Below are positions 4,793-46,382 of a stretch of 64,000 bases of DNA, in pieces. How positions within the stretch are numbered: position 1 is the first letter of the stretch; each line of letters starts with the position of its first letter. A program made the position numbers and the translations under genes. The notes under the pieces were generated by a model. The model was not told where the DNA came from, did no database searches, and saw only the letters and a list, made by a program, of their open reading frames with translations. The DNA is from Alistipes sp. (GTDB lineage: Bacteria; Bacteroidota; Bacteroidia; Bacteroidales; Rikenellaceae). Where the stretch lies: contig JAFZHB010000019.1 of NCBI GenBank assembly GCA_017555105.1, forward strand, positions 22,561 through 86,560. Direction: 5' to 3'.

Positions 4793-4847
4793 AATTTTGA
4801 ATTTTAAATTTTGAATTTGCCCTCTTTCACTATCTTTACCTTCGCTT
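4793..4847 (+). repeat. A/T-rich direct repeat, copy 1 (left flank of first lipoprotein cassette)
   Basis: Repeated AATTTTGAA-type words (4793-4818) are followed after 6 bp by a 23-bp string (4825-4847, core CACTATCTTTACCTTCG). The same two parts, in the same order and orientation, recur at 8056-8115, where the 23-bp string is identical. The A/T-rich part alone recurs at 46297-46328. The string contains TATCTTTA, which resembles a -7 promoter element. Confidence 0.7.
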
Positions 4848-41621: not shown

Positions 41622-42365
41622 ATGAAACGCCTTTTGCTCTTTACGCTGACCCTGCTTGTGGCTGTGGCCGTCGAGGCCAAGCCGAAGTGGCACGAACAGT
41701 ATCGCTACGACCGCTTCAAGGTGGCCGAGCGCAGCTGCACGGTGGTGCACCCCACCACCACGCCCAATGGCCGCTGGATTGTGCGCCCTGCCTTTCTCGG
41801 GGCTTTCCCCTCGGTGGACGACGCCCTGCTGGCCAAGGGATTCACGGTGGCCTACTGCGATGTGACGCACGCCTATGCCAACCCGCGTGCCGTGGCCGAC
41901 TTCGAGGAGTTCTACCACACGATGCGCGAGCGTTACGGGCTCCGTGAGCGCTTCATCATCGAGGGCTTCAGCCGTGGCGGCTTCTTCGCCCTGACCTACG
42001 CCATCCAGCACCCCGAGCAGATCGAGAAGATCTATGTCGATGCGCCGGTGTGCGACCTGAAGAGTTGGCCCTCGCCTCAGGAGGCGAAGCTCTATGCCGA
42101 GGCGGTGCGGTTGTGGGAGGAGGCAGGTGCCTCGTTTGAGGAGCACCACGACTACCCGATCCGCCACTTCCACCGCATTGTGGAGGCGGGTATCCCCGTC
42201 ATCGTCTGCTATGGCGAGGCGGATGAGATTGTTCCCTACGAGGAGAACTTCGGCCGCATTGCCGCCCAATATGGCCGCCGCATCAAGCAGATCGGCAAGC
42301 CCGCGTGTGGCCACCACCCCCACTCGCTCGACAACCCGAAGCGAATCGTGCGCTTCTTGAAGTAG
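41622..42365 (+). CDS. Exported alpha/beta hydrolase
   Basis: The 247-residue protein has a signal peptide (MKRLLLFTLTLLVAVAVEA). The alpha/beta hydrolase fold is shown by the nucleophile elbow EGFSRGG (Ser117), GEADEIVPY (Asp201) and CGHHPHSL (His near 231). It is likely a periplasmic esterase or peptidase of unknown substrate. It is the last gene of the envelope run. Directly after its stop begins the GTCACA repeat array, with no ordinary terminator visible. Confidence 0.82.
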   Translation: MKRLLLFTLTLLVAVAVEAKPKWHEQYRYDRFKVAERSCTVVHPTTTPNGRWIVRPAFLGAFPSVDDALLAKGFTVAYCDVTHAYANPRAVADFEEFYHTMRERYGLRERFIIEGFSRGGFFALTYAIQHPEQIEKIYVDAPVCDLKSWPSPQEAKLYAEAVRLWEEAGASFEEHHDYPIRHFHRIVEAGIPVIVCYGEADEIVPYEENFGRIAAQYGRRIKQIGKPACGHHPHSLDNPKRIVRFLK

Positions 42366-42505
42366 TCACAGCTGGTCACAAAAGTCACAGCAGTCACAAA
42401 AGTCACACAAGTCACAAAAGTCACAAAAGTCACACAAGTCACAAAAGTCACACAAGTCACAAAAGTCACACTAGTCACGCCCTGTGACCGTGTGACTTGT
42501 GACTA
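42365..42505 (+). repeat. GTCACA tandem array, left arm of an inverted pair
   Basis: Twelve 9-bp units (42375-42482), mostly GTCACAAAA and GTCACACAA, follow a first GTCACA at 42365. A unique end, GCCCTGTGACCGTGTGACTT plus GTGACT, closes at 42504. The reverse complement of seven consecutive units and of the whole end piece recurs at 43145-43238. GTCACGCCCTGTGAC (42474-42488) also makes a local hairpin. The array starts on the last base of the hydrolase stop codon. Confidence 0.9.
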
Positions 42506-42560
42506 AAGGTGTGTAGTTGGGTGGGTGAGGTTAAGGTCGCTTAAACTCCACCTTCGTTTT

Positions 42561-42650
42561 TTAAGTCATCTTGACTCCTTTTAAGTCACTTTGACTGTTG
42601 TGTTCAGTCTATTAAGTGACTTAAAGTGTCTTAATTGACTTAAAGTCTTA
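42561..42650. repeat. TTAAGTCA-type repeats with perfect hairpin
   Basis: TTAAGTCA words recur in both orientations. TTAAGTCACTT (42581-42591) is the exact reverse complement of AAGTGACTTAA (42614-42624). The TCAC/GTGA core is shared with the arrays on either side. Confidence 0.65.
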
Positions 42651-42765
42651 AAGCTAAAGCTACGCCTCCCTCCGTGATGCAGCGTGACTTAAAACTTCCG
42701 TAAAGTACGCTCCCTCACGGGGGGTAGTGTGCTGCTGCCCGATTGTAGGGCAACCTACAGAGGGA

Positions 42766-42807
42766 TCATACAATATATATAGTTATTAATATATATATTT
42801 AGTATGA
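42766..42807. repeat. A/T-only palindrome
   Basis: TCATAC (42766-42771) and GTATGA (42802-42807) enclose two ATATATAT blocks around AGTTATTA, an easily melted inverted repeat in the middle of the repeat-rich gap. Confidence 0.6.
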
Positions 42808-42818
42808 TTACGATGTAG

Positions 42819-42898
42819 TATAGGTTATTTAGGTAGTATGGGTAACATAGGGTTCATCAGCATAGACCTATGTTACCTATTATACCTATATATCCTAT
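42819..42898. repeat. ACCTATT-type inverted repeat, copy 2
   Basis: GGTAACATAGG (42841-42851) pairs with CCTATGTTACC (42867-42877). Outside it TAGGTTATTTAGGTAGTAT faces TATTATACCTATATATCCTA, extending the hairpin imperfectly. It is related to the repeats at 7992 and 46211. Confidence 0.65.
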
Positions 42899-42989
42899 CT
42901 TTCCAAAGCTCCCGCTCCCGCGTAGGCTCACAATTACACCGAGTGACTCACTCGCCTACTCACCCGCTCCCGCTCACACATTCGCTTCC

Positions 42990-43124
42990 GCCTCCTCTAC
43001 GGCAGCCTCCTCTACGGCAATCTCCACTACGGTAGCCTCCACTACGGCAGCCTCCTCTGCGGCAGCCTCCACTACGGCAGCCTCCTCTGCGGCAGCCTCC
43101 TCTGCGGCAGCCTCCACTACGGCG
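42990..43124 (+). repeat. Nine 15-bp tandem repeats
   Basis: Units read GCCTCC(T/A)CT(A/G)CGGCA, nine in a row, with the third unit diverged at its first base and near its end. In one plus frame they read Ala-Ser-Ser/Thr-Thr/Ala-Ala, but the surrounding open frame (42870-43241) is low-complexity and does not look like a gene. The 1,038-bp gap 42366-43403 holds these repeats and nothing else that I can recognise as coding. Confidence 0.85.
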
Positions 43125-43144
43125 GCCTACGCAGATCACCCGTT

Positions 43145-43268
43145 AGTCACAAGTCACACGGTCACAGGGCGTGACTTTTGTGACTTGTGTGACTTTTGTG
43201 ACTTTTGTGACTTGTGTGACTTTTGTGACTGCTGTGACTAAGTGTGACTAAGTGTGACTGCCTGTGAC
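43145..43268 (-). repeat. GTCACA tandem array, right arm of the inverted pair
   Basis: 43145-43175 is the exact reverse complement of 42474-42504. Seven 9-bp units (43176-43238) repeat in order the units 42384-42446, and three 10-bp units ending GTGAC follow. The left arm has 27 bp (three units) more between end piece and shared units. Unit polarity is opposite to the left arm. Confidence 0.9.
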
Positions 43269-43403
43269 CGACGAAAAAGAGAAAAAATAGGTCGATTTGT
43301 TAAAAAAATGGTTCAAACCCTTGCAGGTTGTGATAATTTTTTTATAATTTCGTATGTATGGCCACGCAAGAAATTGAATAAAACCTTAAAAATACCTAAC
43401 ACT

Positions 43404-43508
43404 ATGAAACAGACTGCGTACGAGATGCCCACCATCGAGGTGATTGAGGTAACCGTTGAGAGTGGTTTTGCCGCCAGCACGGTTGATTTTGAGAACGGTG
43501 GCTGGTAG
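43404..43508 (+). CDS. Small peptide gene upstream of lipoprotein (34 residues)
   Basis: The peptide reads MKQTAYEMPTIEVIEVTVES then GFAASTVDFENGGW. It has the same design as the 43-residue peptide at 5273: N-terminal M-K, Tyr, Pro, an E-V-rich stretch ending V-E-S/Q-G-F-A, and a final Trp. It likewise precedes a fimbrillin-like lipoprotein, starting about 30 nt before that gene. No signal peptide is present. A weak -7-like TAATTTCG lies about 50 bp upstream. Function is unknown. Confidence 0.7.
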   Translation: MKQTAYEMPTIEVIEVTVESGFAASTVDFENGGW

Positions 43509-43540
43509 CCGTGTGTCGTGAACTTAAAAAAGCAAGGATG

Positions 43541-46117
43541 ATGAAACGCATGATAACTCTGCTGTCGGTGGCTGCGTTGGCTTCCTGCAGCACGGAGGCG
43601 CTCGAAGAGCCCTCCATTCCCGTTGCAGGTGAGCGCGTGGTCGTATCGGCCACGATTGGCGCATCGGACGGTCGTGTGGCGATGGAGGAGATCGAAGATC
43701 CCGCCGGCAACTATGTGAAGGTGAATTGGAGAAACGATGACAGCCCCGAGGAGTTTGCGGTGAAGACCGGCAGTGGCAGTCAGTCTATTGTTCACTTTGC
43801 CCAGACCGAGTCGACCGAGGACAGCCCCTCGCTCTTTGAGGGTCCATCGCTGCGGCCAGGATCGTACAAGGCCATCTACCCCCCGGAGTTTTTCGCGTAC
43901 GGTAACACGGAGATCGTTGGCAACCTGAGTCGTCAGACGGGTGAACTGACGGAGTCGCTCTGCATGATGTACGATTCGAACAGCAACGGCAAGAGCTTTC
44001 ATTTCAAGCACCAGACGGCCATCATCAACCCGACCTTCAAGGTGGGAAATCGACCGTTGGCCACCAATACGATCACCAGCGTGAAGTTGATCAGTGAGAC
44101 CATTCCGAATAAGTGTGACTATTTGCAGTGGGGAACGGTGAATGTGAATGTGGATTGCGACGCGTTGGAGGAGATCTACATCTATATAATGGCCAAGGTG
44201 GGTGTAGAGGATGTGGATCGCTCGTTTGATGTCTATGTGACGACCACCGACTCGCATAGCTACCACGGCACGCTGACCGTGCCCGAGGGCAAGCGGCTCG
44301 AGCCGGGTAAGTTCTACACGCCGACGATCGCGCTGACGGCGCCCGTCGAGCAGTTCGATATGGCCACGACCGAGCCGACGCCCGACGAGGAGATCGTGGG
44401 TGATGGTTCGGCCGAAGAGCCCTACAAGATCGCCACGGCAGGTGACCTGGCCTGGATGCTCGGCAAAGTGCAGATGGGTATGCGCTCGAACACCCACTTC
44501 CAGCTGGAGTCGAATTTTGCGATCGAGAGCGACGCGGAGCACCCCTGGACGCTGGGTAGCATTGTGAGCCCCTTCACGGGTGTGCTCGACGGCAAGGGAC
44601 ACACGATCACGGGTACTTTGGTGGCCAATCCCTCGGCCATTACGGCAGGCTTCGTGGGTGCAAACCAGGGTGAGATCAAGAACCTCCATATTGATGCTAC
44701 GGTGGTAGGCAGCGCAGCGGTCTTCGACCTGATGGGTGTAGGCATTCCGATCGGTGGCGTAGGTGCTGTAGCGGGTCTGAATCAGGGCATCGTGGATGGC
44801 TGTACGAGCAGTGGTACGGTGTGCAGCGAGCTGATGCAGGAGAATGGCCTGGTGGCCGTAGGTGGCCTGGTGGGTGTCAATCTCGGTGTGATCTCCAACT
44901 CGACCAACACGGCTGCCGTGCAGGCTGCCCCCTACGATGGTTCGCTCTTGGTGGCCATCTCGACGGCGGGCGGTATCGCGGGTGGTATTGCCGGTGGCGC
45001 AATCGTGGGCTGCACGAACAACGGAACGGTGGAGGGCGCCACTTCGTCGAATATGGATGAGGATCCCGATGAGGGTCTCTCGCTCACGGCGGGTATTGTC
45101 GGCCTCTGTATGCCGGCAGCCGATGTGCAGATCTCGGGCTGCTCGAATACGGTAGCCATCACGGGTGCAGGTACGCGCAACTACGACGCGCTGGCCAACG
45201 ACACCTACACGGCAGGCATCGTGGCCTTCATCAAGAATACGGATATGGGTGCTTCGGTCACGATCTCCGAGTGCCAGAACAGCGCTCCGATCACGGGCGG
45301 TGTCTCGGCTTACTGTGGCGACTCGTTTGTGGGTGGCATCGTGGGTGTGAACAACATGGCCAACATCTCGAATTGTGTGAATACGGCCGCTGCAACGATC
45401 ACGGCAGGTGATGCGATGGCGACCGAGACCTCGGAGCATAACTACGAGCCGGGCTACACCTACGCAGGCGGTATCGTGGCCAACCACCGCGGTCATATGG
45501 ACGATAATCAGACCTGGATTGTGACCGCTCTGCTGAGTGATTGCCAGAACTACGCTGCGGTGAATGGTCCGCTGGAGGGTGTGCGTTGCTATCTGGGTGG
45601 CATTGCAGGCTGCAACGAGGGCGGTCACGCCGTGATTGAGCGCTGCAAGAACTACGGTGCACTCACGGGTCGTGGCTCGGAGAAGACCGACAACCTCTAC
45701 CTGGCAGGCATCGTGGGCGTGAGCAATGGCAGTGCAGCGACGATCGCCTACTGCGAGAACCACGGCACGGTGACGGGCGGTATCAGCGGCTACGACAACC
45801 ACACGGCAGGTATCGCAGCCTACAGCACGGGACAGTGCAGCGAGCCCGGCTATGAGGGTTGGATCGCGCGTATCTACGGTTGCGTGAATAAGAGCACGGC
45901 GACGATCACCCCGGGTACCTACCTCGGCTATGGCAACCCCGACTACCTCGCTCAACTGTGGGCTACGGGTGGCCTGGTGGCCTATAACTGGAGCTTGGTG
46001 TGCAACTGCTGTGTCGATGAGACGAACTACGGCGATGGTCAGCTGATTGGCTATGGTACGCCTGTGGTAAGTGGCGAGCACGATGAGCAGAACCATATCA
46101 ACACGCCCGAAGCGTAA
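43541..46117 (+). CDS. Surface lipoprotein: fimbrillin-like N-terminus plus GLUG repeats
   Basis: From ATG 43541 (43538 adds one Met) the product is 858 residues. Its lipobox ALASC ends at Cys16. Residues about 20-280 form a fimbrillin-like domain (RVVVSATIGASDGRVAMEEI, YKAIYPPEFFAYG) parallel to that of the lipoprotein at 5417. The remainder is built of GLUG-type repeats rich in Gly and Cys, such as GGLVGVNLGVISNSTNTAA, GGIAGGAIVGCTNNGTV and GGIAGCNEGGHAVIERCKNYG, which fold into beta-solenoids in surface adhesins. It is probably surface-exposed and binds an unknown ligand. Base composition is like the host throughout, unlike the first lipoprotein. A terminator follows. Confidence 0.83.
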   Translation: MKRMITLLSVAALASCSTEALEEPSIPVAGERVVVSATIGASDGRVAMEEIEDPAGNYVKVNWRNDDSPEEFAVKTGSGSQSIVHFAQTESTEDSPSLFEGPSLRPGSYKAIYPPEFFAYGNTEIVGNLSRQTGELTESLCMMYDSNSNGKSFHFKHQTAIINPTFKVGNRPLATNTITSVKLISETIPNKCDYLQWGTVNVNVDCDALEEIYIYIMAKVGVEDVDRSFDVYVTTTDSHSYHGTLTVPEGKRLEPGKFYTPTIALTAPVEQFDMATTEPTPDEEIVGDGSAEEPYKIATAGDLAWMLGKVQMGMRSNTHFQLESNFAIESDAEHPWTLGSIVSPFTGVLDGKGHTITGTLVANPSAITAGFVGANQGEIKNLHIDATVVGSAAVFDLMGVGIPIGGVGAVAGLNQGIVDGCTSSGTVCSELMQENGLVAVGGLVGVNLGVISNSTNTAAVQAAPYDGSLLVAISTAGGIAGGIAGGAIVGCTNNGTVEGATSSNMDEDPDEGLSLTAGIVGLCMPAADVQISGCSNTVAITGAGTRNYDALANDTYTAGIVAFIKNTDMGASVTISECQNSAPITGGVSAYCGDSFVGGIVGVNNMANISNCVNTAAATITAGDAMATETSEHNYEPGYTYAGGIVANHRGHMDDNQTWIVTALLSDCQNYAAVNGPLEGVRCYLGGIAGCNEGGHAVIERCKNYGALTGRGSEKTDNLYLAGIVGVSNGSAATIAYCENHGTVTGGISGYDNHTAGIAAYSTGQCSEPGYEGWIARIYGCVNKSTATITPGTYLGYGNPDYLAQLWATGGLVAYNWSLVCNCCVDETNYGDGQLIGYGTPVVSGEHDEQNHINTPEA

Positions 46118-46142
46118 GCGCGAGGGGCACTGCAACAAGAAA

Positions 46143-46173
46143 GGCTGTCTGTTTATTCAGGCAGCTTTTTTTT
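46143..46173 (+). terminator. Terminator after the GLUG lipoprotein
   Basis: GCTGTCTG pairs with CAGGCAGC with one G-U pair around TTTATT, followed by eight T. Confidence 0.85.
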
Positions 46174-46210
46174 GGGGGGGGGCTTGCAAGAGCTGTGATG
46201 AGCAAGAGAT

Positions 46211-46277
46211 AATAGGTAGTATAAGTAGAATAAGTAAAATAGGTTTAATAAGTCCTATTAAACCTATTATACCTATC
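46211..46277. repeat. ACCTATT-type inverted repeat, copy 3
   Basis: AATAGGTTTAATA (46238-46250) is the exact reverse complement of TATTAAACCTATT (46256-46268), and AATAGGTAGTAT at 46211 faces ATTATACCTAT. It resembles the hairpins at 7992 and 42819. Confidence 0.65.
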
Positions 46278-46296
46278 AAACCCATTAAACCTATTT

Positions 46297-46328
46297 AATT
46301 TTGAATTTTGAATTCTAAATTTTGAATT
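46297..46328 (+). repeat. A/T-rich repeat, copy 3
   Basis: The first 29 bp match 8056-8084. As there, it follows an ACCTATT hairpin downstream of a fimbrillin-like lipoprotein gene. The 23-bp companion string of copies 1 and 2 is absent. Confidence 0.65.
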
Positions 46329-46334
46329 AAAACA

Positions 46335-46358
46335 GAAAAGGCCACCCATTGGGCAGCC
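46335..46358 (-). terminator. Terminator of the Hc1 histone gene
   Basis: On the minus strand GGCTGCCC pairs with GGGTGGCC with two G-U pairs, followed by TTTTCTGTTTT. Confidence 0.65.
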
Positions 46359-46382
46359 TATTCTTTTGCGAGCGTAGCGACC

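Follow-up and report, generated by a model that had tools for sequence, protein, structure and literature searches.

Inverted repeat arrays in an Alistipes genome as the probable ends of a mobile element with an ATPase-bearing partner

The segment 42363-43268 of a 64,000-nucleotide stretch of an Alistipes sp. genome (the window; G000:C17:22561-86560 of a MAG of 1.77 Mb, 86% complete) is probably a mobile element of 0.9 kb that is non-autonomous and has inverted, iteron-like ends; its autonomous partner would lie on contig C14 of the same genome. Comparison of the sequences indicates mobility through shared ends, sites that are empty in congeners, a near-identical relative at different loci and the association of an ATPase gene with the arrays. 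ATPase elements with inverted arrays would represent a previously undescribed type of mobile DNA in bacteria, and the window feature is most likely a gene-less member of it. The literature searched, in which few subscription papers were covered, contains no description of such an element.

The window element and its probable partner on contig C14

The window element begins with the stop codon of a host gene and consists of two inverted outer arrays, two inner blocks and a core with smaller repeats:

41622-42365, plus strand: left flanking host gene, an alpha/beta hydrolase; its stop codon TAG is the start of the element
42363-42478, plus strand: outer array of the left terminus; 13 GTCAC cores (42365-42478), mostly in 9-bp units; opens with the TAG that is the hydrolase stop codon
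42474-42506, plus strand: left inner block GTCACGCCCTGTGACCGTGTGACTTGTGACTAA, 33 bp; a centre and three inverted units; shared without change by the four ends in the genome
42505-43144, no strand: element core, without ATPase match; two ORFs without Pfam match
42559-42651, no strand: small internal inverted repeats of TTAAGTCAC / GTGACTTAA units
42820-42898: internal palindrome of roughly 9-bp units (ATAGGTTAT ... CCTATTATA), arms 84% complementary
42990-43128: 15-bp tandem array (GCCTCCTCTACGGCA), 9.3 copies
43143-43175, minus strand: right inner block, reverse complement of 42474-42506
43171-43268, minus strand: outer array of the right terminus; 11 GTGAC cores, GTCACA-type when read inward

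The original prediction gave the coordinates and units of both arrays correctly and described the arms as exact reverse complements that differ only in three extra units on the left. Positions 42383-42451 and 43171-43239 indeed pair at 100% over 69 nt, but the longer pairing of 100 nt reaches 93%. The three extra left-hand units are present, with the spacers acta, aaaa and acaa counted outward from the centre, and the next seven units are equal on both sides. The outermost units differ, with the spacers aaaa and agctg on the left and actta, actta and aggca on the right, which makes the claim of a single difference a slight overstatement.

The 64-kb window contains five arrays of at least four equal 5-mers at a distance of 7-11 bp, compared to zero in five block-shuffles of the window. 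Two of these arrays are the element ends, two lie inside the element and one is located at 4793. The inner block of each end carries three units in the reverse direction across a GCCCT centre, so that each end is itself palindromic. As single strands, the ends fold better than shuffled sequences (DNA fold; z -3.4 for the left and -2.9 for the right end), which lends support to the earlier suggestion that the arrays could form a large folded structure. No RNA family reaches its gathering score in 42000-44000.

Elsewhere in the genome, the exact array pattern occurs at one place, G000:C14:67256-68911, likewise as an inverted pair; it is absent from the 60 relatives searched. A looser GTCAC pattern matches 7 of 41 genus genomes, compared to 4 of 41 for a backward control pattern, which matches strongly in G062. 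The many control matches of G062, together with GTCAC runs in G028, a genome that lacks an ATPase hit, point to other array types in the genus.

The C14 element (locus L031:5247-6935) is ∼1.7 kb long and contains one recognisable gene between its inverted arrays, a 417-aa ORF on the minus strand (L031:5367-6620). This ORF matches AAA_25 only, and Pfam reveals no transposase or recombinase in L031:5247-6935; the other reading frames contain six more ORFs (81-231 aa) without a Pfam match. In an alignment of the four ends of the two elements, all share GTCACGCCCTGTGACCGTGTGACTTGTGACTAA, and TAGTCACAGCTGGTCACA begins one end of each, namely the left terminus of the window element and the leader end of the C14 element (L031 near 6934, minus strand). 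The ATPase of the partner would bind the GTCACA units of both elements, at each of their two ends. A full-length transposase-bearing element with matching ends was not found in the 86%-complete assembly, where the array pattern is restricted to the window and the ATPase element. Contig C14 also carries a seven-copy GTTTC array (L171:11563-11622), seemingly inside a coding sequence by reading.

The core of the window element speaks against the mobile-element explanation, as its sequence appears to have no homology to the autonomous element. Compared with the ATPase-bearing and array-only loci, it yields only two weak BLAST matches of 30-37 bp (E 0.002 and 0.007) and nothing in tblastn. The ATPase element was accordingly rejected as the source of the core.

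Insertion sites and distribution in the genus

At both loci, the host gene ends on the TAG that opens the element. The stop lies earlier than in the orthologues of relatives, by one codon at the C14 site and by 2 to 6 codons in the hydrolase. Of 22 congeners searched, only G008 and G020 have closely related genes on the flanks (hydrolase orthologues at 69-70% and racemase orthologues at 83-87%), and both sites are empty in both. At the C14 site, these two genomes have ∼100-120 bp with a terminator-like hairpin (by reading) instead of the 1.8-kb region. At the window site, the hydrolase gene is followed by ∼92-99 bp and then by an Hc1-like gene (Pfam; 46383 in the window), so that everything from 42365 to 46382, with the peptide and GLUG lipoprotein genes, is additional DNA of the window genome. 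It amounts to 4 kb and exceeds the 0.9-kb element, a point against the mobile-element explanation. The 34-aa peptide gene (43404-43508) and the GLUG lipoprotein gene thus lie in a lineage-specific region, which shows a smaller palindromic array of ∼9-bp units (CCTATTAAA) near its other edge, at 46210-46295 after the GLUG lipoprotein gene. The lipoprotein gene appears to be no more than a neighbour of the arrays.

The original prediction had also proposed that the enclosed segment may invert and, as a promoter, control the lipoprotein gene. An invertible segment responsible for phase variation of the peptide and GLUG lipoprotein genes is highly improbable. The long, near-perfect inverted repeats agree with this idea, as does the occurrence of opposite orientations at one locus shared by two congeners. 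The elements concerned, L116 and L126, have the closest ATPases (82%) but different units, so that replacement or re-insertion fits as well as inversion. No Pfam recombinase is found among the main genes scanned at 36.6-52.3 kb, and G008 and G020 lack both the segment and the lipoprotein gene at this place. A scan for sigma-70-type promoters, with Bacteroidales-type promoters outside its scope, shows one promoter-like site, compared to 1.4 expected by chance; it lies on the minus strand, and no outward promoter on the plus strand was detected. The promoter-like sequence nearest to the peptide and GLUG genes (∼43330-43352, by reading) is located outside the enclosed segment. Furthermore, like arrays enclose ATPase genes beside unrelated housekeeping genes.

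A search with the ATPase alignment yields 57 loci, 53 of which are titled Alistipes sp., uncultured Alistipes or Rikenellaceae bacterium; 42 of these 53 titles name a ruminant gut sample. Among 150 genomes of the family, 43 match the ATPase at an E value of 1e-30 or better, and all matches above 320 bits belong to the genus of the window. Within the genus, 59 of 180 genomes match with an E value of at most 1e-60, and in 53 of these the score exceeds 260 bits. An inverted repeat pair of any unit flanks the ATPase gene at 41 of 46 genus loci (those of 54 with at least 250 bp on either side of the gene, some of them near-duplicates), compared to 0 of 8 more distant homologues (L151, L153, L154 and L157 from other taxa and L059-L062, whose flanks were cut from the match and not from the gene; L059 is a weak homologue from within the genus). 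The five loci without the pair are L108, L119, L120, L128 and L131; the first four have an upstream array, and L131 has none. In 22 ATPase elements, the outermost cores are spaced 1.33-1.84 kb apart.

Array-only elements are found twice in G027 and once each in G003 and G035. Their unit, and mostly also their centre, resembles that of the ATPase element of the same genome. G028 contains GTCAC runs (L210-L212) but no ATPase hit; at the loci taken from G028 and G061, the GTCAC runs show no palindromic end of the form seen in the window. These runs count against the mobile-element explanation.

Mobility within the family is indicated by an element that is 98.7% identical over the 981 bp available in two MAGs and lies beside valS in one (L118) and rsfS in the other (L143). 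The match stops 7 bp beyond the last unit. RGIG6253 harbors three internally deleted copies with 81-88% identity on three contigs, and RGIG8952 harbors two more diverged internally deleted copies. In RGIG6253, the DNA common to the copies continues beyond the GTAAC arrays and includes more inverted arrays, so that the array does not mark the edge in this case. The family thus combines presence or absence at orthologous sites with the occurrence of one element at different sites, as defines a mobile element.

Several sites are shared by multiple species according to flank similarity, namely the valS side (L116, L118, L126, L127, and L135), the rsfS side (L112, L119, L134, and L143) and the murG side (L107, L121, L123, and L124), with the gene names checked in one locus each. 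Elements at shared sites often have different units and occur in both orientations, which suggests preferred sites or repeated replacement. One pair, L136/L137, occupies the same site in two MAGs. This recurrence near valS, rsfS and murG and the site common to L136 and L137 could also be expected of stationary regulatory or replication-related iteron arrays, and the units and palindromes do resemble protein-binding iterons. Arrays that are not ends of mobile elements are nonetheless very unlikely in view of the empty sites, the near-identical element at two loci in two MAGs and the multi-copy derivatives.

The mobile element favored here leaves no sign of target-site duplication. In 23 elements, the longest word shared by the flanks averages 4.13, compared to 4.15 in mispaired flanks, with no excess; the sole 11-bp flank repeat is that of L114. 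Some known transposon families make no target duplication. The Y1 transposase (Y1_Tnp) is matched in 0 of 41 genus genomes, including that of the window, and in 5 of 14 control genomes. The lack of target duplication in the 23 elements and of Y1 transposase in the 41 genomes disfavors some of the usual routes of movement.

The ATPase and its repeat units

All 10 ATPase members tested match Pfam AAA_25, 9 of the 10 match the DnaB-like helicase of PHROG, and none of the 10 matches an NCBIfam family. A conserved segment after the ATPase core is read as a putative winged helix, with weak Pfam hits in a few members, and is followed by a variable C-terminal tail. No strand-transfer domain is recognised in the protein. 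The ATPase of the window genome on C14 has the acidic, SSB-like C-terminal tip EEEDTPF. Acidic tips ending in PF occur in 21 of 49 ATPases, and 28 of 49 have no PF tip. The acidic tips resemble the end of the SSB from the same genome, DPDDLPF; in SSB, the acidic tip recruits partner proteins. In several elements, the right array continues in frame into the ATPase tail as V-T-x or V-S-x repeats. In L072, L075, L079 and L216, the right array lies partly inside the ATPase gene and encodes VTx/VSx, the period of nine keeping the frame.

Plasmid and phage proteins that match the ATPase show 28-39% identity over at most 68% of its length. The peptide patterns also occur in 29 stretches of viral contigs, of which none is a relative. 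A defence system was considered and rejected: PADLOC mads_8 matches 2 of 10 members with a best E value of 4.7e-05, and the protein of the window genome itself has no match. Solved structures gave a single match at an E value of 0.29, judged to be chance.

Each element has its own unit of 8-10 bp. Read inward, the units are GTCACA, GTAACA, GTTACA, ATTACA, CGAACA, TTAACA, TTTACA, CTCACA, GCCACA and ATAACG, with a few unclear. Unit classes were assigned partly by eye, and 40 rows were tested, which remain from a 49-row table after removal of 8 unclear units and the near-duplicate L137; this table differs from the set of 49 ATPases used for the C-tip counts. On a tree of the ATPase core with the winged helix left out (40 rows), the unit class changes at least 20 times.

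The recognition helix of the putative winged helix tends to change with the unit. A basic residue followed by T, S or H at helix positions 2-3 is found in 10 of 10 GTCACA elements, compared to 4 of 30 others, a rule chosen after the data were seen. Seven independent GTCACA contrasts give a mean of 6.2 in the same direction and 0 in the opposite direction (median p of 0.03; range, 0.016-0.063). An aspartate at helix position 3 occurs in 5 of 5 CGAACA elements on three branches and in 0 of 35 others, where three pairs alone cannot reach significance. With core distance removed, the distance between helices correlates with that between units (partial Mantel r of 0.18; 7 of 3000 permutations as high), in contrast to the remainder of the winged helix, which is without correlation (344 of 3000 as high). 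A genus-wide search for held-out elements yielded 30 loci, of which only L247 is less than 97% identical to elements already used; L247, with an SRTNAAM helix and GTAAC units, contradicts the helix rule. Mutual information between residue columns and units was set aside, as it is uncorrected for descent and has its top column at residue 246 in the ATPase core. Moderate evidence from sequence comparison thus suggests that each ATPase reads its own ends via the putative winged helix. The alternative raised originally, that a protein binds the GTCAC core, gains support from this covariation, with exceptions.

The covariation also bears on the possibility of an ordinary MITE-like element that a conventional transposase (DDE or other) moves in trans, with the ATPase as cargo and the arrays as incidental features. 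Such an element is unlikely. Gene-less copies exist and no strand-transfer domain is recognised in the element, as this explanation would have it, and a DDE transposase or tyrosine recombinase elsewhere in the genome could act in trans, given that the genome-wide search covered Y1 alone. However, the arrays occupy only two places in the 86%-complete genome, no transposase is recognised in the elements or their scanned neighbours, Y1 transposase is absent from the 41 genomes and target duplication was not found. The tendency of the ATPase helix to covary with the ends is a further argument against a role as cargo.

Possible mechanism and related systems

For the ATPase-dependent element, a multistep mechanism can be envisaged. 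The ATPase would assemble on the arrays and melt or loop the palindromic ends, followed by the recruitment of host proteins that handle single-stranded DNA through the SSB-like tip of its tail. In the last step, the element would be copied or excised by host enzymes and placed at a new site. The C14 ATPase would act in trans on the window copy. More generally, and with somewhat less than even chances, the family may be a class of elements that moves without a transposase: a RecA/DnaB-like ATPase would read element-specific end arrays by a fast-changing winged helix, its SSB-like tail would bring host replication and repair enzymes for cutting and copying, and gene-less copies, including that of the window, would parasitise the ATPase of their own genome via the shared unit. 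If this is right, mobile DNA includes a kind whose defining features are an ATPase and a repeat code instead of a transposase, and the odd inverted repeat arrays found in these gut bacteria would have an explanation. The roughly 40 elements, which differ in their units, would then form a natural series for the joint change of DNA-binding specificity and binding sites, and the family would allow a test of whether DNA can be moved by host replication proteins alone.

REPIN/RAYT and IS200/IS605 elements, which depend on a Y1 transposase, are similar in their palindromic ends and the lack of target duplication, and REPINs and related elements are moved in trans; the difference lies in the absence of a Y1_Tnp match from all 41 genus genomes. 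RepA/DnaB-type replication ATPases of Bacteroidales plasmids and phages and iteron replicons have the AAA_25 core, the DnaB-like helicase match and iteron-like repeats in common with the elements described here, which in contrast form a chromosomal unit with one recognisable gene.

The long inverted ends of short tandem repeats seen here resemble those of the Foldback-type transposons Foldback, Galileo and Tetris of Drosophila, which likewise have long inverted ends with internal tandem repeats and ends-only copies. Foldback types are eukaryotic, whereas the present elements are bacterial and their only recognised gene encodes a RecA/DnaB-like ATPase. Galileo has a transposase of the P superfamily (PMC3573991). 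In the same order as Alistipes, the BrickBuilt MITE of Porphyromonas gingivalis is also short, non-coding and mobile, with inverted ends and tandem repeats. BrickBuilt carries 23-nt repeats internally, its 12-bp ends are similar to those of the IS5 family, and three of the four copies with both ends show short duplications (PMC4596501). Here, unlike in BrickBuilt, the arrays themselves are the ends, and duplication was not found.

ATPase elements are often surrounded by outer shells of inverted arrays whose units are different (TTAGGGAAn, GGACCCTTn, and ATGGGTAnn), as at L148, L149, L152, L116, L126 and L217; these shells are perhaps the ends of nested elements from other families at these sites. 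L215 (G149:C1:990548-991456), from a single-contig genome, is a divergent relative (44%) with the tip HDEPF and shows a GTAAC/GTTAC palindrome only downstream; it is possibly a differently built member of the family.
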